A program made the translations under genes and the position numbers. A stretch of 64,000 nucleotides of DNA from Copromyces sp. CBS 386.78. Lineage: Eukaryota; Ascomycota; Sordariomycetes; Sordariales; Sordariaceae. The notes below the pieces were generated by a model. It was not told the DNA's origin. It did no database searches and was given only the letters and a program-made list of their open reading frames with translations. Positions 8,783 through 27,701 of this stretch are shown here, piece by piece. Each line of letters starts with the position of its first letter. The first letter of the stretch is position 1. Location: the NCBI GenBank assembly GCA_030685235.1, contig MU839217.1, forward strand, positions 55,434-119,433. Reading direction: 5' to 3'.

Positions 8783-10853
8783 TTAGGCCACCATCTCTCC
8801 CAGTCCAAGATCCGTCCCGCTGACAGGAAACTTCACAACATCGTCGGACTCACGGTGAGCAATGCGAATCCAGAAGTTTTTCAGCAAGAAGAGACCCTGG
8901 AAGCACTTTGTCGTCAGTCCCTTATAAATCGGGCGAGACATGGCACTCCAAGCCAATTACGGAGCTGAATAGTGGTAAGAAGAGATCACTAGGGAGACTC
9001 ACCGGTTGAACCATATCCAAGGGCTTGAACCCGTCGACAATGGAAATATCGAACCTCTTGAAAATCTGCATTGCACGCAAAAACATCGTTAGCATGGGAT
9101 CGGCTCAGATATCCAGACCCAGCCCAATCCAGTCTGTCAATCCAACAACCCTTGAAGAAAGTCAATGCATGGAAACTTACCTCGACGAAAATCTTATTAA
9201 ACTCCATCAGCGCCACGTTCTTCCCCAAACACATCCACTTTCCATGACTAAACACCAAGTCGACAGTGCTGTTCATGAGCGCCAATTTTCGTGCGTCCGC
9301 CTCCAACCAGCGCTCCGGCCTCCATATATCCGCATCCGCACCCCAGATATCCTTCCGCCTGCAGATTGACATAATGGTATACCCGATCTCCGTTCCGCCA
9401 GGCAGAAAGCGCCCGGCAATGGTGTCTCCCTCGGGCGGCACGATCTTGGGAAGCGGCTGAGCGGCGGGCGGCGCCAGACGGAGCGACTCCTTGATGACGG
9501 CCTGGAGGTAGGGCATCTTGCGCCCCTCGGAGTCGCGGATGACGGCGTCAGGGTCGGCGATGGTGCCGTCGGCCAGATAGCGGTCGATTTCGGCCTGGAG
9601 ACGGCGGTAGGCGACGTTGTTGGAAATCAAGTGGAGGATCGCTACGCGGATGCAGGTAGCTGAGGTGTCGGCGCCTGCGGAGAGCTGGAGGACGGATTCG
9701 CCGATGGCTTGTTCCGGCTGGATGCCGTTGCGGATAAAGGAGGCGAGCATGTCGCGCTTTTGGGCCTTGGTTTTGTCGGCGGCGGGACCGAAGCGCTCCA
9801 TTACGACATCTCGCGCGATACTGGAAGGTAAGTAATGTTTGTTAGCATATAATATTTGTCTATTATTTTTCATTTTTCATGGCGTATGTCGACGAGGAAG
9901 AACCAACCGCACAACAGGACCTAGAGCCTTGTCTTCAGAGTAGAAGAAAGGTCTGAAAGGCCACTTGACCAACTGCATGGTGATGGAGGGAATCATGCTC
10001 AGGACGGGCGCCCGAGGGATGGCGTTTTCAATCGCCTCAACGTAACCCTTAACGTCCGCGTCCGCATCGCAGTTGCCGAACCCCTTTCCAAAGGCTAGCT
10101 CACTGATGACATCTGATGTGAAGTACTGAGCTGTTAACGCGAAGTCCATGGGGCGGAACTGTTTGCTGTTCGAAATGTACTTGGTTTCGATCAGCCTGAT
10201 GAAGGAGAGGAGAGCCTTGTCGACAGTGGCCTCCAGGGATTCGTTTTCCTTGCCCGAGTACTAATTTGAAATGGCAAGTCAGGTTCACGGTCCTTTTCTG
10301 TAAGTTTTTTAGGTAGAGTAGCGGGGTTGGAGCATACGCCGGGGGCCATCTTCCTACGCATCGCGGTGTGGAGGTTGTCATCAATGACGTTGACAACGCT
10401 GTCTCTGTCTGGGTCCAGACGGAGGGCTTGATACCACTTTGCTCTGGTATAGCGACCACGAACGGCTGTAATTCGGTAAACAATTTCAGGATCGTCAGTC
10501 AAGACCGTTCCTGGTCCAACGCGCACGAGTGTACCTGTAAGTATTGGCACCACCAGTTAGCTTTTCTTGCCTATGAAGAATCGGTTCTCCCTCGTCGGAT
10601 AGAGCGTGTAGCGATGGATAGACGTACCATATCTGTCATGATATTCCATCATAGCCGTGGGTTGCCTTAACTTCAAAGCATCGGAGAAGAAACCCCAGTT
10701 GCTGAGCCCAGCCCACCATGGCCCGGGGACGTGGGAAAGACGGCGCCATACAACGACGGTGTTGACAATGTAGGTAAGTGCCAGAACAACTAATGTACCA
10801 GCAACAAGTTCACGGCTGATGGGCAGCTCTTGAAGTGCTGTAAGGATCGCCAT
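8783..10853 (-). CDS. Cytochrome P450, pisatin demethylase (CYP57)-like, six exons, 530 aa
   Basis: Microsomal haem monooxygenase. Exons on the minus strand, read from splice signals: 10853-10628, 10534-10338, 10260-9908, 9820-9181, 9065-9003 and 8896-8783. Donors are gtacgt, gtatgc, gttggt, gtaagt and gtgagt, and the sum is exactly 531 codons. The N-terminus has a membrane anchor (~16-33) and a proline-rich hinge with HVPGPW. Later come the I-helix AGADTSA (~307-313), the ExxR motif ESLR (370-373), the PERW segment and the haem-ligand motif FSHGKWMCLG with Cys ~456. The KIVPPEGDTIAGRFLPGGTE segment and overall pattern resemble the pisatin-demethylase-like group. The substrate is unknown. It lies 7 kb from the RiPP-like genes, so a link is possible but unsupported. 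An in-frame TTG at 10862 is not needed as the start. Confidence 0.88.
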
Positions 10854-12183
10854 GATGACCAACGAATTTCTTGCAGGGTTGTCGAGAAGCTCTTGTTGAC
10901 GGAGTTTCAGATGCCAGAACTAGGCATCCGGCCCTATCTTATACCCAAACAAAACGTCTTTCTGCTAGACATGAAGATCCTTTCTCCCCGTCCATCCTCC
11001 TCTTGAGTGGGTTGCATTTCTTGAAGCAGAATCAAGTCTCCGAGTCTACTGTACACTCTGCATGGCTGTAACTTGTGAGCTTAGTACGTTGATTCTACAA
11101 GAAATAGGGGCCAGATAGGGGGCAACTCTGATTTTCTTGTGTGAAAAATAAAGTTCTTTGCCACTCCGGAAAACCACGCTAACAAGTTATATCCATGCAG
11201 ATGTGTACGGATTGTCCCCGGCGAACGTAACGGAAAAATTCCTCCTAATATGCTAGCAAGGCAATATCATATGATGAGGTAGTACTCATTGGCCATGATG
11301 GACGCGGATACCGGTATCTGGAGTTAAACCACGGATGCTACACGCCTCCTCACTGGCGGTACCATTTCTGAACCATTAGAGTCCTTCCTCATCAAGTATA
11401 TATAACCGTTCAATCTGCAGTTGGGTAGCTGTTGCATGGCTTTGTGTAACGAACGCGAGTGTCTGCCAGTTCTGCAACACCCATGTGGAGTTGACGATCC
11501 TGGGGCATCGTGAATTGAAGGGTGGTGGTCGCAACGTCGTGATAGAGATGGGCCCCGGGGACTAGAGATAGTGCACTGTGAAGGAGGCACGGCCCGGCAT
11601 GCATGGCCAGTGGTCTCTGCATTCATTCCTTTGCTCACTGGGGCTCCTTTCATGTCCTTCACTCCCAAATAGTTCGCCGAGTGACTTTTTGTCAGTGCCA
11701 TTGACTTACTCTACCTCCTCATCAACGGTTTCATGAGTCACAGCACAGAATTCAGAAATAGAAACCAGCGCATCTTGCACCCCAGAAAAGGTGCGGCCTG
11801 CCAGATATGTCCAGGGTAAGCGAGGGTGATGAAAAGCTCGGCATTCATTCTGAGCCATTGAGGCGCGCACGTGGCACAAGATCCTTAACATTTGCTGAAG
11901 GCGTCCTTTGAGGCTGAAGAGAGTTGTTGGCGGTATAAATTTCTTTGATTCCCCGGTGAATCGCCCAGAAAGATGCAGTGACGGTTCTTGCACAATCACA
12001 TCGGTGGTTCAGAAAGATATCGCGGAGAAAGGCTGGATAGGGACCACTACGCGCCGTTGAACAGCACAGTGCAGCCCCGCACCGCGACAAACACCACCAA
12101 GAAAGGATCACCACTTCCGGGCGGGGACGTTACTTGGGTTGCATTGAACGACAAATAAAGAGGGGGGAGTTCGTACGACAACG
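10854..12183. other. Intergenic, 1.3 kb, divergent promoters
   Basis: Lies between the divergently transcribed P450 and the chromate transporter. The reading frames present are short, overlap on both strands and show no recognisable motif. Confidence 0.5.
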
Positions 12184-15785: not shown

Positions 15786-16084
15786 GGTAAAAAGATGATG
15801 ATGGAAAGATGGCGAACAATCTCAAGTTTGAGTGGAAATTGTTATCTTCGAGCGCAGAATGTCGGTTGGTTCCAACATACATACACAGCCCTGGAAAACG
15901 TAATATGCAAGGCCAAGAAGGGAAGGTGAAACCATTAGAGGTAGTACCAACCCTTATCCGACCCCTCCCTGACTTTACCCGACCTAGCCCATGATTTCGA
16001 AGGAAGGTATCATTAGCACGCGACTGTCTAGAAACCTGTCACTATTCTATCTGAAGAACGTGCAAAGAAGGATGAGGGACTTAC
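15786..16084. other. Intergenic
   Basis: Short spacer upstream of the GFA gene and before the first small inverted-repeat element. No feature recognised. Confidence 0.4.
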
Positions 16085-16504
16085 TTAAGTTGTGTTCGGT
16101 CGCCCAGTATGCCAGTAACAGTAAGAAGTTTATATGGCAGTAAGCAACAGCATACTGCCGTGATTTTTGCGTTCGGCTGTTTTCTAGTAAAAATCTGCAA
16201 GTTGATGTAGGTCGCTGCACTTCCTCCAACTCCCCCAATGGCCTGCATCTGACCAATCAGAAGGCCAGAAATCATTGGAGATCTTACTGCTTTCTTCGCT
16301 TTCATACTGCGTAAGAACCCATGTTTATACCAGTATAAACACTGAAGATTAAATTTATACTGGCCCAACGAACACGAGACCGTTATAGGGAAGTTTGGAG
16401 GTGCATTACTGTTGCATTACTGTACAGCGATTTCGCTGTAGGCCATCAATAGTATATGCAACCTCTACGATATTGGTATACTGGGTCACCGAACACAACT
16501 TTAG
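16085..16504. mobile_element. Small TIR element (MITE-like), copy A
   Basis: About 420 bp bounded by inverted ends of about 30 bp: TTAAGTTGTGTTCGGTCGCC on the left, and a right end whose complement reads CTAAAGTTGTGTTCGGTGAC. The first ~235 bp are nearly identical to copy B starting at 16534. There is no coding capacity beyond short frames. An internal 12-bp inverted repeat (GTTGCATTACTG and a degenerate partner) flanks a 27-bp segment. Target duplication is not clear. Confidence 0.75.
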
Positions 16505-16533
16505 TATCACCGAGATCAACATTCTCGCGACGC

Positions 16534-16895
16534 TTAAGTTGCGTTCGGTCGCCCAATATGCCAATAACAGTAAGAAGTTTATATGGCAGTAAACAACAGC
16601 ATACTACCGTGATTTTTGCGTTCGGATGTTTTCCAGTAAAAATCTGCAAGTTGATGTAGGTCGCTGCACTTCCTCCAACTCCCCCAATGGCCTGCATCTG
16701 ACCAATCAGAAGGCCAGAAATCGTTGGAGATCTTACTGCTTTCTTCGCTTTCATACTGCTTCAAACCCCATGTTTATACCAGTATGAAAGCACTGCATTA
16801 CTGTTGCATTACTGTTGATGGCCTGCAGCGAAATCGCTGTACAGTAATGCAACCTCTACGATACTGGCATACTGGGCGACCGAACGCAACTTTAC
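16534..16895. mobile_element. Small TIR element (MITE-like), copy B
   Basis: About 360 bp, same orientation as copy A and only about 30 bp from it. Ends: TTAAGTTGCGTTCGGTCGCC and, inverted at the right, GGTAAAGTTGCGTTCGGTCG. Most differences from copy A over the shared half are transitions. Its 27-bp internal segment (16815-16841) is inverted relative to copy A and is flanked by perfect 12-bp inverted repeats. Confidence 0.75.
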
Positions 16896-17758: not shown

Positions 17759-17956
17759 ATGAAGTTCTCCACCTCCTTCCTTCTCCTCCTCACCAGCGCC
17801 ACCGCTGCTCCCCTCGCCAACAAGCAAACTGGCGGCGACAACAACGCTCAAGGAGTCGTCACTTGGGCAGATGTGACCAAGCGCGATGGAGGTGATAACA
17901 GCGCCCAGGGAGTGGTGACTTGGGCGGATGTGACCAAGCGGGAGGAGGATGCTTGA
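17759..17956 (+). CDS. Secreted repeat precursor peptide, putative dikaritin-type RiPP precursor, 65 aa
   Basis: Residues 1-17 are a clear signal peptide (basic KF, a run of leucines, TSATAA). Two near-identical units follow: residues 25-42 and 44-61, each GGDN-N/S-AQGVVTWADVTKR and each ending in the Kex2 site KR (41-42, 60-61), then a short acidic tail EEDA. This is the architecture of UstA/PhomA-like precursors: signal peptide, repeated core, dibasic cleavage. The two units differ at nine synonymous sites but only two amino-acid sites, and AQGVVTWADVTKR is identical, so the product is under selection. The core has one Trp per unit and no Tyr or Phe. A UstYa-family gene lies 0.7 kb downstream and three more follow. 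A possible intron (gtaagc at 17995) would be in the 3' UTR. An alternative is a secreted peptide pheromone or other Kex2-processed repeat protein. Confidence 0.75.
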   Translation: MKFSTSFLLLLTSATAAPLANKQTGGDNNAQGVVTWADVTKRDGGDNSAQGVVTWADVTKREEDA

Positions 17957-18653
17957 GATCTACATTCCCATTCTTGCTGATTCTCTCTGTCTTGGTAAGC
18001 ATACACCCGGTCCTAGCTACAGCGTATGGGGCATCTTGTTAATTATAATTTAATTAGTGGACAAATACTGTGGCACGCCTGCAAGCCATCAAGGAGGACG
18101 ACTCTGGCGAGGGTGTTTAGAAACTGAGGAGAGGGAAGGTGGGGAAGGAGGGGGATGGTGGTGCTGGAGGAGGGTAAAAGGAGAAATAAACCCGTAAATT
18201 CCAGTCATTTACATTAGTGCAAATCATATTATCTTCCTACATTGAACTATCTGCAAATTAGTGAGAGCGAAACTACGTGTTTGTCCACAGCTACTGAACA
18301 ACTTTGCGTTTTGACATGTCGGCCATGATCTATTTCACCTGGCCCATTGTTCAATACCTAGGTGCCTAGACAATTAGGCGATTCCAAGAAAAAGTATCAC
18401 ATGGGATAACCAAAAACAGGGGTCGTGTGCATAATATTTTTCTTGGAACCACCAGGCAATTGATCGCTCAAGTACTGGCCATATAGGAAGATCTAATCGA
18501 GGCAGACAGTGGTATGTGTTTCGGGTTTCTCTTGTAAACTCAAGACTCTCCCTGATCACTTAACTACAGCTCAATGAAAAACACTCTGACACTCGTTGAT
18601 GTTGCATGGAAAAGATACTTTAGCAGACAGGAATTGATTTTCGTCACTGCCTA
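17957..18653. other. Intergenic, convergent
   Basis: 3' regions of the precursor (plus) and the first UstYa-like gene (minus). Contains a candidate 3'-UTR intron at about 17995-18058. No further gene seen. Confidence 0.45.
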
Positions 18654-19424
18654 CTACTCATTCCTATAGACCCTCTTGCCCCCCAATACCCTATACCACC
18701 CAAACCTTCCCACCTCCCCCCTTTCTCCCTCCTTCGGACAGCCAACATACTTCATATAAACCCCCAACTCCTTGATCCCCTCCCTCCCCTGCATCATCCA
18801 CATCTCACAATGATTAGTATGATGCGCATCGCCCACATACCCGTCCAAAACCGTCGTAATCCCGCCCTCTTCAACGGCGTTCAAAGCCGCCTGCCACGTC
18901 TTCTTCCAACTATACATGCAATGCAGAACCTGAAACTCCCACGAGACATAAACATACTCCCACTCACCCTCCATGACTTCCTCAAGCGGCATGGTGGAGT
19001 TGTGGTCCTCGTCCCGGTAGAACAGCCCCCGCTCTTCTCGGGATAGGAACTCAGAGGCGAGGTTGGCGTCGTGGCACCGGATGGGGACCCAGCCCATGAG
19101 GGTTGGGTCAAAGACGCAGTTGGATTGGAGGGCAGAGGTGGGGGAGAGGCCGCATTCTTCTAGATCTAGGGGTTGTTGGTTGGAAGGGGTTGAGGACTCG
19201 TCGGGTGAGGACTTCGATGCAGGGGAAAGGATTCGGGTGAGGGGAGTGATCAAGAAGACAAGAGGGATAATTAGGATAATAGTGGCGATGTAGAGTTTGG
19301 TTTTTGAGTGTGTTGGTATGGGCTCAGTGTTGAGTGATGCTTTGTCGTCGTCGAGCAAGATGGAGTGTTGGTCATCTTCAGACTCCTCGCCGTCTAAGGC
19401 GCGGTCGTAAGATGGACGAGACAT
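18654..19424 (-). CDS. UstYa-family (DUF3328-like) oxidase, divergent subtype, 256 aa
   Basis: Intronless. A cytosolic acidic N-terminus (1-42) is followed by one membrane segment (43-62, KLYIATIILIIPLVFLITPL) and a lumenal domain. Conserved parts are CVFDPTLMGWVP, the region around 161-175 (SWEFQVLHCMYSWKK) and 201-206 (HHTNHC). UstYa proteins carry two HxxHC motifs thought to bind metal for oxidative cyclisation of RiPP cores. Here the second (HTNHC, 202-206) is intact, but the first reads QVLHC (165-169), lacking the leading His. It shares the FxVLHC-x-x-x-x-KK and HTNHC pattern with the gene at 25131, so the two form one subtype distinct from the genes at 20392 and 23011. It is the nearest neighbour of the repeat precursor and converges on it, which suggests a role in its maturation (inference). 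Confidence 0.78.
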   Translation of the reverse strand: MSRPSYDRALDGEESEDDQHSILLDDDKASLNTEPIPTHSKTKLYIATIILIIPLVFLITPLTRILSPASKSSPDESSTPSNQQPLDLEECGLSPTSALQSNCVFDPTLMGWVPIRCHDANLASEFLSREERGLFYRDEDHNSTMPLEEVMEGEWEYVYVSWEFQVLHCMYSWKKTWQAALNAVEEGGITTVLDGYVGDAHHTNHCEMWMMQGREGIKELGVYMKYVGCPKEGERGEVGRFGWYRVLGGKRVYRNE

Positions 19425-20391
19425 GATAGAGGGGGGATCCGGAATGTTGTGTTGTGAGAAAGGAAGTAAAGCGCCGATTCATTCTCCCTGGGCTTCAGGA
19501 ACTTGCTGGGATGGTGCAGAGAGACAGGAGGTCCAAATATGCAGACTGGGTGGACAAAAACTCTGTGGTGCCGCTCTCTCTCTTCGCTCTTTCCCGGAAG
19601 GGTGCTCTGTCTCCGAATGAGTCCCGCAAGACCTACGATCGCATAATGTGCCCCGCCAAGGTAATGCAAGGAGTTGTACCCAGCAGTACCTTCCTTCCCA
19701 GTCGATGAAATGACAGCCTCTTCGTTTCTTCTTCCTGATTTGGTTTTTCCTTTTTTTTACCACATCTCGTATCCTTTGCTCGTTCACTACGATGTCGCAG
19801 TTTGGGTTTTCTTCTCAGGTCGTCCCTTCTACCAGGGTCGCCATGTCTGAAACCGAAAACCGTGTAAGACCATTGGCTCGCCGATCCCAAAACCGTGAGT
19901 AATCGCCTTTGTCAAGCCTGTTAGTGCATGGGTATTGTCAGCAGCACTATAGGTGCATTTGAGGGGTACTCACTAACAGTGACACCCCGCAACCCCTGAA
20001 GCTCACCGTTTTGCCCGAAAGTGCACCGTTCTGACAGTTCCACAATTGCAGGCAGCCGAATCCTCCGGGCAAACCTTCGGCTTCCATGATCACGGCAACA
20101 CCAGTTCCGTGAGTCGTACAGGATAATCTGACAAAGCGCTGACCAACACGATGTGCTTTGGGGTATCATCGTGACTGCCTCCTGGGAGCTGCCATGATCC
20201 CCGCCTGCGTTCGGGTCCGGCTCGAGGATGGTGAAGGAGAGCCGAATAGGTCCGATTACTCAGACCCAACCGCTCGATCAGTTCGTTTTTGTTTGCTTCC
20301 TGTCTCCCATATTCCAGGCTCGTTCGTCGCCCGGCCTGTTCGACCTCTTCGTTCTAACGACTTCTTACCCGTCTCGAGAAACACAAAAGAG
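19425..20391. other. Divergent promoter region between two UstYa-family genes
   Basis: About 970 bp. An ATG at 19791 opens about 34 codons ending at a good donor (gtgagt at 19893), but no convincing continuation was found, so no gene is called. The open frame from 20158 into the next gene looks like 5' leader. Confidence 0.45.
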
Positions 20392-21495
20392 ATGCTCTCC
20401 AAGTACGTACCGACTTCATGGCTACGAGACACCAATGTTCGCATTGCGTACAACACCCTTCGAGGGGCAGAGTCGGACGAGAAGCTCGACACAGAACGGT
20501 TGAACATCCTTAAGAGCGAAACGGATATCAGCGGAGCTCTGCGAGAGCAACTTCGGCGACTCAGACTGGCAGTCATGCTGCTGTCCAGTTCACTTGTTCT
20601 GGTAGTCCTTGGTTGGGCTCTCCGAGAGTTTACAGGGCCTCGAGATGTCAAAGTAGAGGCTCAGTTCACCGGTAAGTTCCAACCACAGTTACCACAAGAC
20701 CGCAGACGTAAAGAGCAGACCATGATAATTAGTCGGATTGCAGATTACGTCGTCAAAGATACGCCAGAAGTCTTCTCCCCAGCCATCAAAGCAACAGAGT
20801 GGAAAGAGGTTGTCTTCCACAACAATTTCGAAGACAAGACCCGCTGGCAGGGGCCGCCAAACGACGAAGTTGACAAGGCTTGGAAAGATCTGTACATCGA
20901 TATTGGTGTCATCAAGATCCCCAAAGAAGATGCCGAGAAGTTGCCCAACCAGACTCTGCCCATCCCGGGAGAAAAAAATGGGTACATCGTGGGGTTGGAA
21001 GTTTATCATCAGCTTCATTGCTTGGTATTCCACTTTCCCTAGCCGTAGCTCCCCTGAACTGCTCAATGACTGACCAATGTTCTGGTACCAGGACCTAATC
21101 AGGAAGCACTTCTACCCCGACCGCTACGGTGACGACAAAGATATGACGGAAGAGCAGCGCAAGGAGTACTGGATTCATCTCGGTGAGTTATGGGTTTCGG
21201 TAGAGACTTCGACCACATGACAGCCAAGCTGACCTCCAAACAAACAGAACACTGCATTGATAACCTCCGCCAGACTATCATGTGTTACTCCGACATTAGC
21301 ACCATCCCCTGGATGTACATGGAACGGGTGCACGCCAACTTCCCCTCGGCCAAGACGACTCACATCTGCCGTGACTTCGACAAGCTCACGGAGTGGATGC
21401 TGCACCCGGATAGGCATTTCCCACAGGAGGAATATCAGCTTCGGCTGAAGGCGTTGCAGGCCGGTGCACTTGCTGAGAGCGGGATGCATCCCTGA
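20392..21495 (+). CDS. UstYa-family (DUF3328) oxidase, both HxxHC motifs intact, four exons, 299 aa
   Basis: Exons 20392-20671, 20744-21024, 21092-21182 and 21248-21495 give 300 codons. The first intron is 72 bp with good gtaagt and ttgcag signals. It keeps frame if retained, so it is slightly uncertain. One membrane helix spans ~58-77 after a basic and acidic cytosolic head. The lumenal domain has SPAIKATEWKEVVF, then H182-Q-L-H-C186 at an exon end and H216-L-E-H-C220 followed by IDNLRQTIMCYSD, the canonical pair of UstYa motifs, and later THICRDFDKLTEWM. These are type II membrane proteins that catalyse oxidative macrocyclisation or hydroxylation in dikaritin and related pathways. A start at 20158 in the same frame is possible, but the shorter start gives the usual N-terminal length. 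Confidence 0.88.
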
Positions 21496-21780
21496 TGTCT
21501 TGTCTGTTGATACTGCTAGGATGAAATCAGATGGTAACTCGTGAAAAGATGCGAACGGATCGGTGATTCCAGCGAAAATTGATTTGTCACCAAGTATGAT
21601 GCATTGGATCTTGATCTAGCCCTCCTCGTCAAATCCACGGTGCACCCGTCCACATATAAAATACCTTGAGAATCCAAGACAAAATTTGAAGCACAATAAC
21701 AGCTACATCAGTTCCAAACCTTTCTACCACCAGAACCGCCCACAGCCGACCTGCCTCCACATAGTTTCAGTGATATCAAA

Positions 21781-21996
21781 ATGTGCACAAACCATATCTG
21801 GCACCGGGTGTGTAGGACATGCGAGAAGATAGTCTTCGTCGAGACTGAAGAGGAACCATGCGAACTAGTCAAAAACGATCCGAGCAAGTTCTGGGGCGAT
21901 TGCGAAACGTCTTTCAACAAGGTGTACACTGAGTACATTATCTTTTGCCATGTGTGCGAAGAAAAATATGGTGAGTTAGGTACACTGATTAGATAG
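21781..21996 (+). CDS. Small Cys-rich protein, 71 aa, unknown
   Basis: A short frame starting MCTNHIWHRVCRTCEK with paired cysteines (C-x7-C-x2-C near the start, C-x2-C near the end, two more between), suggesting a small metal-binding fold. No signal peptide. A donor-like gtgagt at 21970 may splice to an acceptor at 22014, which would end the protein one or two residues after EEKY; the unspliced frame ends at 21996. Support that it is real comes from a decayed paralog 0.5 kb downstream that keeps the segment EEVKNDPNKFW...C. It sits between two UstYa genes. Function not recognised. Confidence 0.5.
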   Translation: MCTNHIWHRVCRTCEKIVFVETEEEPCELVKNDPSKFWGDCETSFNKVYTEYIIFCHVCEEKYGELGTLIR

Positions 21997-22480
21997 CGAG
22001 GGCGGCATATCTCAGTTTGATCAAGCATGGGCGCTCGAGGTGGATATTGCAATCAATGCTTAAAGGAGGATATTCTGGAACAGATTTAAGCGATATAGAA
22101 AAAATATTTGGATGATAAATCGTTGAAATAAAAAGACGGGGTGGTGGATTTGAGAACCTGGAACAGCTCTATGCGTCATCACATATGGCGGGATCATGAG
22201 GTGTTAATCAACCTTCTTCGTTGACACATCTCCGCTGCATTGACTCATTAATCTCATTTATGGTAACTCTTGAGAAACCCTATATCTCGACAACTACCCA
22301 CAATAACAGCAAGCTATAACACCGATACTTTAACCTCGGAAGAAACCCTACCATCACTACTACCATACTACCACGGACGGTCTGCCCTCCAAAACTCCCA
22401 GCTATTCTGGATGTTCAGAAATCATGTTTTTTTCGGACTTTGTGTCTAACTAGGTTGCCGGAGGGTGGTTTTTTACGCAG
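21997..22480. other. Intergenic
   Basis: Spacer between the small Cys-rich gene and its relic. Nothing else recognised. Confidence 0.4.
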
Positions 22481-22602
22481 GCTCTGGAGGAATCTTGCGA
22501 AGAGGTGAAAAACGACCCGAACAAGTTCTGGAGCAATTGCAGAACCTCTGAGGACAAAGTAACTACGATAGGCCTAGTATAGAGTTGCACTCAGTGCGAA
22601 AA
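22481..22602 (+). pseudogene. Relic paralog of the 71-aa Cys-rich gene
   Basis: Translation gives a segment with ESCEEVKNDPNKFWSNC and SEDKV, then a TAG stop and SCTQCE. The gene at 21781 has the matching EEEPCELVKNDPSKFWGDC, SFNKV and FCHVCEE in the same order. No matching start is visible upstream and a stop interrupts it. It is a local duplicate that has decayed. Confidence 0.65.
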
Positions 22603-23010
22603 CAACTAGTTCTGAAAGCTGGGCATGAAACACTATCTGGAAAGAAAGTCGGCCATCTAGGTAGGGACGAGACGGGAGTGAGAAGATGCATGCATGTAGA
22701 AAGGTCAAAAGCGTATATGTGAGTTTGACGAAGATGGGAAATGTGGGTACATGGAACCATTATTTCATTGAGAATTGACATTGAATGTGGCCGTAGCGTC
22801 CATCCATTTGCTTCAGCACGAGAACGAGCATGAAGTGATTTGTACAATAAAGGTATCTACGCCGGGAATTGCATAGACGGGGACACTGCCCAAGTAGATG
22901 CAAAGCAATCAAAACTAGGCAGAAAAAAAAACCATTGTTCCAACCATTGACACAGATACCCGCCTACAGCTACGTTTTTGCTGAATATTTCCTGCCCTGA
23001 GCCTCCCCCG
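22603..23010. other. Intergenic
   Basis: No gene recognised; contains an A-run near 22922. Confidence 0.4.
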
Positions 23011-23988
23011 TCAAAAAACCGGCTTTACCGCCCCCTCCCCCTCATACCTATCCACCATCCACCTCCTCAAAGGCTCAATATCCCTACAAGTATGCTTCAC
23101 ATCCGAATCGACATAGTTCCTCCCAAGAGACGGATAGTACTTGGTCGGTATGGGCGTCATATCTCCCGAACACATGATGTACTGCCTGATCTGCTCGATG
23201 CAGTGGTCTTGATGGAGCCGGGCGGTTTCAGGGGAGGAGGTGCGACGGTGATGGTGAGAGGTTTCGGGAGGGTAGAATTGCGGGTTAAGTTCTTTGCGGA
23301 TGTTGTTCTGTTTTCCTTTTTGTCAATGATAATGGGTGAAGATGGACGTTGGGAAAGACGTACCAAACAATGAAGCGTATGAAAGACATCAAACCCAGCT
23401 ACGTATCCGCCTCGCTGCTTATCCCGGTACTGCTCAATGTCGTCTACATCCGGCCAAGAAGCGATTGCTTCCTCCTTGGTGATAAGGACGTAGCGACCGT
23501 AGGTGAGGTTGTCCCAGTTCCAGTCAATCTCGGGGTGCAGGGTGGGGTTGCCGACGTAGAGAATGGGATCCGGGTTGGGGACGTACATAGAGCCGTCTGA
23601 GTGGAAGGATGGGCTGCCTGTGAACCGGATCTGGGCAGCGTGAATGTGTTGTTTTGCTGTTACTATTCGCGTGTGAAGTTGGCTCTATTAGTTTCTGTTG
23701 GTGGGCTCCCAGTCATTGTTGTGTGAACATACCAAAGTCAGTGGCATAACCACCCTCAAATGTCCCCAGTGAGCTGCGTTGACAGTACTGGGGTTCGTGA
23801 GTTTGGTCTATGAACATTGCCAGAAGCAACGAGAGAGTGAAGAAGATGAGCGTGAGTGTCCATGGGACAGCAGGATGGAGGAGCCAGTCGACAAGACTTC
23901 GTCGACGACCAGATTGTAGTGGCCATGGTGAACCATCCTCGCTGTCGTTGTCAGGCACCGGATCGTACTTGTCGTATTTGGTGGCCAT
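23011..23988 (-). CDS. UstYa-family (DUF3328) oxidase, both HxxHC motifs intact, three exons, 281 aa
   Basis: Minus-strand exons 23988-23733, 23656-23364 and 23307-23011 give 282 codons (donors gtatgt and gtacgt; acceptors taacag and aaacag). The start MATKYDKYDPVP is preferred over an upstream ATG at 24039. A cytosolic head is followed by a membrane helix at ~42-60 and a lumenal domain with AQIRFTGSPSFHSDGSMYVP, DWNWDNLTYGRY, H178-T-L-H-C182 at the exon 2 end and H215-Q-D-H-C219 followed by IEQIRQYIMCSGDMTPIP, then KHTCRDIEPLRRWM. Between the two motifs is an unusual His/Arg/Ser-rich stretch (HHHRRTSS). The same subtype as the gene at 20392, it probably acts in the same RiPP-like pathway. 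Confidence 0.88.
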
Positions 23989-25130
23989 GATGGAAGAATA
24001 GTGTCTTGAGTAGCCTGGTTGTAAGAAGAACGAGGCCACTCTGCTGAGGGTATGCTATTGACAGTCAGACTCCAAAGGGAATATTGCCTGAGTTCCGCTG
24101 TCTTTGACTTGGGAGAAAAAGGTCAATACCCAAAACAGAGAGAACCAGAAAAGAGAGGTGGGCGAGACCATCCTCCCCTTCCCTTCCGAGCTCTGCCGCT
24201 CTGCTCAAGAACGGCAACGAACCGGAGATGATCATATCGGTTCTCCGCCGGTGAGGCTGCAAAATACCCTCGATGCCGCAACCCTTCCATGGATCACCAT
24301 CAATACGAAGCCGATGATCACTGTGACGATGATGGGACCTGCCTACCTGGGAATTTGGGAATCATCGTTCAGCTCACAAAGACTGTTGGGAGGCAGAGTT
24401 GAGGCGATTCAGAACTTCGGTTCGTGGTTTGTGTAACTGCAACGCCGCTATCATCGAAAAACGGAGCGAAAACGGTGCCGGTCTGCGGCGACAAGTGGAT
24501 CTCATTGAATCACTGAACAACACCGCATGCTTGCTAGGTGAAGTTGGTTCCAGTGTCGTATTCGATGATGGTAAGCTTTCGCGGGGACTGTTCCATCGTT
24601 CAGCTGTGCTTACGTGGAGAGGTAAAGCTTAGCAGCGAGCGTTTCACGATCCATCGCGATGCCAGTGTTTTGGTGTTACTCAGCATCTTGCTTTGACGAA
24701 ACATGTCCAATTGAAGGATCTTTGACCCGGTCAACCGTGCCCCATTTTCGGAGATAACGCGGAAACCTACTGGGGGAAGGAATGAGTGCGGCAGACTCTC
24801 TCCCGGATACCGTCAACGACGTCCACTCAGGTTGTTCCGGAAGAATATCCGGCAGAGAGTTTCCTGGGAAGGAAGGACCCATCGACCACTTCTCATAACA
24901 TTGGATCGGATGGATTCCACCTCCGCTGCATTCCCCTCCCTTTGCTTTCAGTTGTGACTTCCCTGAGTGTACGGAAAAGCTCTTCACGGGGTTCTTCAAA
25001 CCCCTCATCCTTCTTTCCTCACATTTCTGCCTCATCTCATTCCTTCTCATTTAATCTGGGAGCTACCTTGGCCTTCAAGCCGACGCTCCTCCCCTCACCA
25101 TTTTCCCTCCAGCCCCCAAGACAATACCTA
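23989..25130. other. Divergent promoter region between two UstYa-family genes
   Basis: About 1.1 kb. The frame open from 24786 runs into the next gene and seems to be 5' leader. No other gene recognised. Confidence 0.45.
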
Positions 25131-25943
25131 ATGTACCCCAAGATGTATCCCGCCAAACCTCCCTCCCTCGAACACAAGTCCTCCCTCGAAGAACCTTCGA
25201 GTTCCTCCTTCCGCCGCTCCAGCTCCGATGACGACTCGGCGGCCACCCTCCTCGCTACCCCAAGCAGGCCTCCAGTTTATCCCGCCGTCGCACCCTTCTC
25301 CTTTCCCTAGTCCTTTCATTTGCTCTCTTCTTGTCCATCACCACAATCTACACCACCCTAACCATCCATCATCTCTCCCTCTCTTTCCCCCTCGCCACCG
25401 ACTATGGCGACTGCGGCACCTCCGAAACCGTCGAAGAGGCCCGAGCCAAGGGCTGCGTATTCGACGCCATGTCCTGGATTTGGGTGCGGCCGGAATGCTA
25501 CGATGCCGAGTTGGTTGAGGACTTCTTCATGAACACCAATTACTCGTGGCATACGGAGCCGAAGCTGAAGCCTGACACAAAAGTACCTATGGACGTGATT
25601 AGGAGGGGGGATCATCCCAAGCTTTTTGTGCAGAAGGAGTACCATAGTGTGCATTGCGCTGTGAGTTTTGCTTTTATTTTCTTCGGGTACACGGCGAGGG
25701 GAAGAATGGGGAACTCAAGACAGAAGCGCTGACAAGTGGTGAAAACAGTACATGATGAAAAAGATGCACAAGGCCATTATCGAGCATCGGCCAATGGATA
25801 GCTACCTGACAGATTGGCATCATACTAACCATTGCGGCATGGTGATGCTGAACGATATCATGCATGGGGATGTGGAGTGCACGCCCGAGATGGTGTGTCC
25901 TACTTGGGTGAGGGCGACGTGGACGGCGTGTAGGCGGTTCTGA
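25131..25943 (+). pseudogene. UstYa-family gene, divergent subtype, apparent 1-bp frameshift
   Basis: ATG 25131 opens a Ser/Asp-rich cytosolic head (with SSSSFRRSSSDDDS) like that of the gene at 18654. The membrane helix and lumenal domain continue in another frame (2 nt offset) from about 25260: RRRTLLLSLVLSFALFLSI, then CGTSETVEEARAKGCVFD and SWIWVRPEC, HSVHC at the exon end (25660), and exon 2 from 25749 with KKMHKAI and HHTNHC. The frames would join if one base were restored in the C-run at 25258-25261. No GT-AG intron explains the shift. Both HxxHC motifs are intact, and the rest shows no decay. It is therefore either a recent frameshift, a sequencing or assembly error, or a gene with a start I have missed. 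Confidence 0.6.
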
Positions 25944-26408: not shown

Positions 26409-27701
26409 TTACTCGGCATCGACAGGAGCCTTGGGAGGGGTGTTGTTCACCTGGATACCACCACGCTTCTTCTCGTTGCTGTCGGGCATGGGAAGAGCCC
26501 AGCCGCCCTCGCTCTCGGGGGTAGAAAGCCAGAGACGGAGAAGGTGACGGCGGGGAGCAGGAGGGGCAAAGTCTATCAGGACGTGTTAGTATCCAAGTCA
26601 TTGATTCGAACGGAAAAAACAAAAAGAAAACTCACCCCTATAAGCAGTACGAGCATGCAACAGATGCGCGTTGCTCAAGAACTGGATATCGCCAACCTCA
26701 AGAACCATATGCAGCGCCAACCTCTGGCAAGTTTCCTCGAGAATCTGCATCGCCCGCAACTGCTCCTCGCTGAGCGCAGGGATCAAGCCCTTATCCGAGA
26801 AACGGGTGAGGGACTTGACGTAGTAAGGATCCCACTTGCAGTAAAGTCTGCCCTTGCCGCCATTCTCAATGTACACAATCGGCTGGCGGATCCATTCCTC
26901 CTGGCCCTCCGACACCTCGCCCTTGCGGTCAAAGTACCAGATGGGCTTAGTCAGGAGCTCAGCGACATCCGGGTGCTCCTTCTGGAGGGTGTTCCAGACG
27001 TTATGAACGGAAACAATATCGGACTCGCCACCTTCCTGCGCGCGGTGCACGCAAAGAAGGCCGACGATGTCGCCGTCGTCGGCGTGGAAGAACTGGCGCG
27101 CGGCGGTGCGGTAGATACGGACCGTGTGGAGCTGGGTCGGGTCATCACCGACGTCCTTGACGTGGCCGAGAACGTGACCACGGCCGTTCTGCGAGATGAA
27201 GTAGCCCAGGTAGGTGCCGAGGCCCATGTAGGCGACGGCGTTCTTCTCGGCGCCCCAGACGTCGGCGGGGAAGCGCTTGAAGAGGACGAAGCCCTTGCCG
27301 TTGAGCAGGTCGTCGCGGAGGTTCTGGAGGACCTTGCCGAGCTTGGGCAGGGGGAAATTCCCCTGCGAGATGCCGGTCAGGGAAGTGCCGGAGGCAATGA
27401 AGGCGTCGGCCGTGTCGGAGAGTTCCTGGACCTCTTCATCGGTGAAAGGGTGAACCCAGCGCTCGGGGTTGTTGACGAAGTCGTCGCGCTTCCAGACGGT
27501 GGGGCCCGAGATCTCCTTGGGGAACTCGGAGTAGGGCTTCAGGACGTCATAGAGGGGAGCGTGCTGGCCCGAGGTACGGATGCCGTCAGGGAAGATGTCC
27601 CGGGGGGCGTCTGTGTTGTGGTAGGCGTTCTTGTGCTTGAAGGCGGCAGGGGCAGAAGGCTCGGCGGACTGGGCCTCCTCGACGAGAACTCCGGGAGCCA
27701 T
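26409..27701 (-). CDS. TauD/TfdA-family Fe(II)/2-oxoglutarate dioxygenase, two exons, 409 aa
   Basis: Exons 27701-26636 and 26572-26409 join in frame (gtgagt and tgatag) to 410 codons. The double-stranded beta-helix core shows the iron ligands H206-A-D208 (FFHADDGD) and a distal His in LLHARTAY (~H349), with the 2-oxoglutarate-binding Arg provided by RRHLLRLWL across the splice site. Members of this fungal TauD-like group oxidise taurine-like or other small substrates in the cytosol; the actual substrate is not known here. It adjoins the UstYa genes but runs convergent to them, and it looks like a broadly conserved metabolic gene, so I do not place it in the RiPP locus with confidence. A full-length open frame on the opposite strand is an artefact of codon bias. 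Confidence 0.88.

Follow-up and report, generated by a model that had tools for sequence, protein, structure and literature searches.

A probable dikaritin-like RiPP locus with a Trp-containing, Tyr-free repeat precursor in Copromyces sp. CBS 386.78

In the available part of a survey of 7878 Kex2-repeat proteins, 1758 (22%) have DUF3328 neighbours, and among the precursors so placed 65.6% contain Tyr and 20.5% contain Trp (PMC7329392). Trp repeats beside UstYa (DUF3328) genes are thus not unheard of. Few peptides made by UstYa proteins have been characterised, set against those 1758 precursors; a 2022 review, in its accessible text, counts five dikaritins (PMC10512285). In the known systems covered by the accessible parts of these sources, UstYa proteins are required for ether bonds to Tyr (PMC7329392) and for desaturation (PMC10512285). 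The original definition of dikaritins places a tyrosinase in the cluster; a later one, as given in the part of the source available, makes UstYa the class-defining enzyme (PMC12048977).

We analysed a window of 64,000 bases that makes up the final part of a contig of 119,433 bases (C139:55434-119433) in the 49.8-Mb genome of Copromyces sp. CBS 386.78. An earlier note, made from the sequence alone, had pointed to a small secreted repeat precursor close to several genes with HxxHC motifs. The features of this region (Table 1) indicate that it is probably a dikaritin-like RiPP locus.

Table 1. Features of the locus, with positions in the window
Feature	Position	Strand	Remarks
Kex2-repeat precursor, 65 aa	17759..17956	+	ORF reading; signal-peptide-like N terminus (by eye)
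Precursor repeat 1, GGDNNAQGVVTWADVTKR	17831..17884	+	
Precursor repeat 2, GGDNSAQGVVTWADVTKR	17888..17941	+	
Gene A, 256 aa, single exon	18654..19424	-	HHTNHC and degenerate FQVLHC; no Pfam family
Gene B, UstYa (PF11807), 299 aa, 4 exons	20392..21495	+	Two HxxHC motifs
Gene B exons	20392-20671, 20744-21024, 21092-21182, 21248-21495	+	
Small Cys-rich ORF, 71 aa	21781..21996	+	Between B and C
Gene C, UstYa (PF11807), about 3 exons	23011..23988	-	Two HxxHC motifs
Gene D	25131..25943	+	Frame break between 25259 and 25313; two HxxHC motifs; no Pfam family
Ordinary later intron of gene D	25661-25748	+	
TauD-family dioxygenase, main open frame	26598..27701	-	Taken as locus boundary

The precursor and repeat precursors elsewhere in the genome

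Direct reading of the ORF bore out the claim of a 65-residue, putatively secreted precursor with two KR-terminated repeats, its start being judged by eye to resemble a signal peptide. The protein consists of MKFSTSFLLLLTSATAAPLANKQT followed by GGDNNAQGVVTWADVTKR, D, GGDNSAQGVVTWADVTKR and EEDA. Its two KR-ended repeats are identical at 17 of 18 residues and contain no Tyr and one Trp, which is the only aromatic core residue. At the DNA level the repeats agree at 44 of 54 bases, with 10 of 18 codons changed and nine of the ten changes synonymous. The probability of at least nine synonymous changes in ten was 2.4e-5 by a simple site count (13.2 synonymous sites of 54), and in a simulation of 20,000 sets of ten changes the fraction with one residue change or none was 5e-5. 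Thus, the peptide has been kept by selection after duplication, and the repeats are under purifying selection with strong constraint.

Among 270 ATG-initiated ORFs of at least 40 aa in the window, the precursor alone passed a test for repeats followed by [KR]R; no ORF passed in 200 shuffled ORF sets. A second copy was not found in the same genome. A search of 5.77 billion proteins returned only the precursor itself, by a method that requires shared 5-residue words and annotated proteins and would miss unannotated small genes.

Matches to PF11807 numbered at least 16 at six places on five contigs of this genome, family counts here being lower bounds. Kex2-repeat precursors were found at three of the five other UstYa regions scanned (C121, C145 and C48), and none at C53 or at the upstream UstYa region of C139. 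The proposal that a Kex2-repeat precursor lies beside UstYa genes is therefore supported, with the same arrangement at three further loci. A looser scan gave 12 ORFs, of which four were taken as precursors and eight set aside as low-complexity or overlapping frames. In 14 control loci, a non-random set of 46,593 bases with overlaps counted twice, the scan gave only the alpha-pheromone gene, in four overlapping loci. A canonical precursor of alpha pheromone, carrying four QWC-type repeats, occupies C17:207814-208254, the only place where this pattern was found. We rejected the precursor of the present locus as an alpha pheromone: it lacks the QWC...GQSCW repeats that we take to be the Sordariomycete pattern, and the canonical gene sits at C17.

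The three further loci differ in content. C121:100000-129700 is a phomopsin-type locus with 15 EDYVIPID repeats, four UstYa matches, one gene related to A and D (A/D-type), and a tyrosinase match at C121:121635. Precursors of the EDYXI type, as at C121, are reported in Neurospora in the accessible part of another study (PMC6339444). At C145:91178-98299, seven AEPAYVWGSRGTNKR-type repeats are accompanied by four UstYa matches, which probably represent three genes; queries with A and D gave no relative there. C48:272542-277911 combines a precursor whose repeats (e.g. NDEAWTQIINPTTKR) have Trp as the only aromatic residue, UstYa and an A/D-type gene; the precursor pieces fall in more than one frame, owing to introns or decay. 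Counting the present locus, UstYa genes of this one genome are accompanied by four repeat precursors that differ in core type; in two of the four, Trp is the sole aromatic residue of the repeats.

UstYa genes and the A/D family

The earlier note had described four UstYa-family genes with HxxHC-type motifs, in two subtypes of equal number. All four genes were located and the counts (2 and 2) stood, but A retains one intact motif, and only B and C match PF11807 (181.8 and 124.5 bits; curated cut-off 25). A and D belong to another family, and sequence comparison does not link this second subtype to UstYa. Over 299 aa, gene B shares 93% identity with a protein of Neurospora tetraspora. The closest relative of C within the genome is a UstYa protein at C121:124486 (51% identity over its last part), and none of the 36 protein database matches listed to E 1e-8 had C as its best match.

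A Pfam scan of A and of D (the part after the frame break) gave no family at E 1, and among 11 members of the D family scanned, a single weak and unrelated match turned up in each of two. A and D were matched to each other at 99.9% in profile comparison, and in a tree of 23 rows, from which six short rows were left out, each occupied one side of a branch with support 95/96 (21 grouped rows). The positions of two paralogs from the same genome are unsure because of their very long branches. As judged by these comparisons, A and D are one family made of two sister groups. Aligned with the B family by hhalign, A and D reached probabilities of only 4.3% and 20.2%, which gives no sequence link to UstYa and does not support common descent. 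The sole tie of A and D to UstYa that we could discern is motif layout. In A, FQVLHC stands where the first motif would be, HHTNHC being the second. The first motif was degenerate in all four readable A proteins that share a contig with D (this genome, Echria, Rhypophila and Canariomyces) and kept in five of seven readable A-family proteins for which no D was seen on the contig (lost in P0003 and P0010), a pattern that is only suggestive, given the relatedness of the rows and the shortness of several contigs.

Within this genome, A and D queries at E 0.1 or better recovered themselves, each other and just two further places, C121:117232 and C48:272542, which lie 1.3 kb and 2.6 kb, respectively, from UstYa matches. 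All A/D-type matches found in the genome therefore sit at UstYa loci. Structure predictions were of moderate confidence for A (mean pLDDT 67.9) and for P0015, the N. tetraspora relative of B (mean pLDDT 65.4). In each of the two models, viewed singly, an N-terminal helix precedes the helices that are predicted to carry the motif stretches. A Foldseek search of the PDB yielded 66 matches for the P0015 model, none at E 0.001, and no matches for the A model; PDB sequence relatives of the B or D family were not found.

Linkage and surroundings of the locus

Oxidase-type genes of this locus share contigs in other fungi. A, B and D occur together on a 211,529-base contig of Rhypophila decipiens, A and D on contigs of Canariomyces notabilis (171,483 bases) and Echria macrotheca (2,064,662 bases), A and B on one of N. 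tetraspora (6,760,402 bases), and B and D on one of Podospora didyma (5,285,177 bases). Among the seven other named genomes with A, four thus have a B or D match on the same contig; in Pseudoneurospora, Lasiosphaeria and Diaporthe, the remaining three, no B or D was on the contig of A among the matches listed, and none of five further contigs with A matches recurred among the B and D matches listed. A matches were listed to E 1e-3 and B/D-type matches to E 1e-8. Contig sharing was read from identical contig base counts, and megabase contigs do not prove proximity; the two smaller contigs, of Rhypophila and Canariomyces, are the telling cases. The check proposed earlier, conserved synteny of precursor and oxidase genes, was accordingly answered in half: the oxidase genes share contigs elsewhere, and the protein search turned up no precursor relative.

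At least 11 tyrosinase matches were found in the genome, none of them on the contig of this locus, and a Pfam scan of 17 window ORFs gave no methyltransferase, no peptidase and one chromate transporter, 4 kb upstream. The earlier note had likewise seen no tyrosinase or methyltransferase inside the locus. TauD matches numbered at least 15, and only the one adjoining the locus shares a contig with UstYa; membership of the TauD gene in the locus is unsupported, since no other TauD match lies on a UstYa contig. A P450 at about 8992-10855 was left out, being 7 kb from the precursor and behind the chromate transporter. The Cys-rich ORF between B and C, of which a second, partial and degenerate copy lies at about 22472-22606, was rejected as a pathway component: its weak relatives lie on three other contigs, without UstYa matches.

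Upstream of the precursor, positions 16084-16894 look like a small mobile-element remnant, with a direct repeat of 256 bases (95%) and an inverted repeat of 44 bases. Positions 1-2000 of the window are very AT-rich, with a GC content of 22% compared with about 48-56% over the following 38 kb, and a further UstYa match lies at C139:46993, about 8 kb beyond this stretch.

Readings of the locus and comparison with known systems

As a dikaritin-like locus, the region would act as follows. The precursor would enter the secretory pathway and Kex2 would cut after its two KR sites and so release a pair of nearly identical peptides, each with GVVTWADVT at its end. The UstYa oxidases B and C would modify the core, with A and D as putative extra or partner enzymes. 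With Tyr absent from the repeat and no tyrosinase match on the contig, a Trp-centred cross-link or desaturation is the likeliest chemistry; such an oxidative step would involve Trp and neighbouring Val or Thr and proceed without tyrosinase. The earlier suggestion that the chemistry may differ from that of known systems is reasonable on the same grounds; the modified cyclic product that it proposed is putative. Our literature search found nothing on point on Trp-type UstYa products, and victorin and epichloecyclin came up only in reviews.

The state of gene D raises the possibility, to which we give rather less than an even chance, that the locus is a decaying remnant that once made a modified peptide and no longer works in this strain, a view compatible with a RiPP locus in the past. 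The reading frame of D changes between 25259 and 25313, where its relatives P0041 and P0044 code through, and in related fungi A is annotated as short proteins ending before motif 1 (N. tetraspora P0006, 167 aa; Pseudoneurospora P0004, 155 aa), while the annotated B is short and lacks HxxHC in N. crassa (P0035) and Sordaria (P0039). These short forms come from protein annotation, however, and either D is broken or the assembly or gene model is at fault: the break could reflect a mistake in the assembly or a genuine intron, and the public annotation, a 221-aa D (P0025), skips the stretch apparently via a short intron. Reading frames are uninterrupted in the precursor, A, B and C, and the constraint on the repeats is strong. 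On the dikaritin-like reading, too, D may be inactive in this strain, so that the pathway may be incomplete, and the locus is perhaps eroding in Sordariaceae.

Two other explanations detach the peptide from the enzymes, and we hold both to be improbable. Release of the repeats requires no modification, and 6120 of the 7878 Kex2-repeat genes surveyed have no DUF3328 neighbour, so the precursor could encode a secreted signalling peptide that stays unmodified and has no more than proximity in common with the oxidase genes; yet mating-factor and pheromone genes in the accessible part of that survey lack DUF3328 neighbours, with three exceptions (PMC7329392), and the canonical alpha-pheromone gene of this genome, with its four QWC-type repeats, lies elsewhere and is unlike the precursor. 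That A, B and D are linked in other genomes while the precursor was found only here would fit independent neighbours, an oxidase group with another substrate beside an unrelated new small secreted protein. Against such a coincidence stand the repeat precursors that accompany UstYa at three other loci of the genome, and it is common for a precursor to have no homolog (2560 of 7878 in the available part of the survey; PMC7329392). Collectively, we favour a dikaritin-like RiPP locus.

The main news of the locus is the A/D family. Should A and D be oxidases, a search with PF11807 only would undercount the enzymes in such pathways. A bolder proposal would make A and D sister groups of an undescribed HxxHC oxidase family that function together next to UstYa, A having become a non-catalytic partner, and the locus a tyrosinase-free, Trp-linked class of fungal RiPP; we rate this as unlikely. 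The open-licence UstYa literature, in the parts available, speaks only of DUF3328/UstYa, and we do not claim that the A/D family is absent from print.

Compared with described systems, the locus combines a repeat precursor with UstYa genes, as in the later definition of dikaritins. The tyrosinase of the original definition has no match on the contig; as to the methyltransferase and transporter or peptidase that it also lists, the 17 window ORFs scanned gave neither a methyltransferase nor a peptidase, and one chromate transporter outside the locus. The Tyr core of ustiloxin, phomopsin and asperipin is likewise absent from the repeats. To our knowledge, the asperipin-2a cluster, in which a repeat precursor also accompanies UstYa, has no tyrosinase, as here. 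That cluster differs in its Tyr-based core and single UstYa gene, as described in the accessible part of the survey (PMC7329392). Kex2-processed repeat proteins (KEPs) share the layout of signal peptide (by eye in our precursor) and KR-separated, Kex2-ended repeats, but their class is defined by layout alone and is silent on modification. The C48 locus is similar in its Trp-only aromatic repeats, its UstYa and its one A/D-type gene, and dissimilar in repeat sequence and in the spread of its precursor pieces across frames. Phomopsin- and ustiloxin-type dikaritin clusters resemble the present locus in having a secreted KR-repeat precursor and several UstYa genes, and the phomopsin-type C121 locus also in its one A/D-type gene and its UstYa relative of C. 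In contrast to C121, the present locus has no Tyr in its repeats and no tyrosinase match on its contig, two repeats rather than fifteen, and two A/D-type genes. Clusters of this kind are known; the Trp peptide, the mix of enzymes and the signs of decay are unusual.
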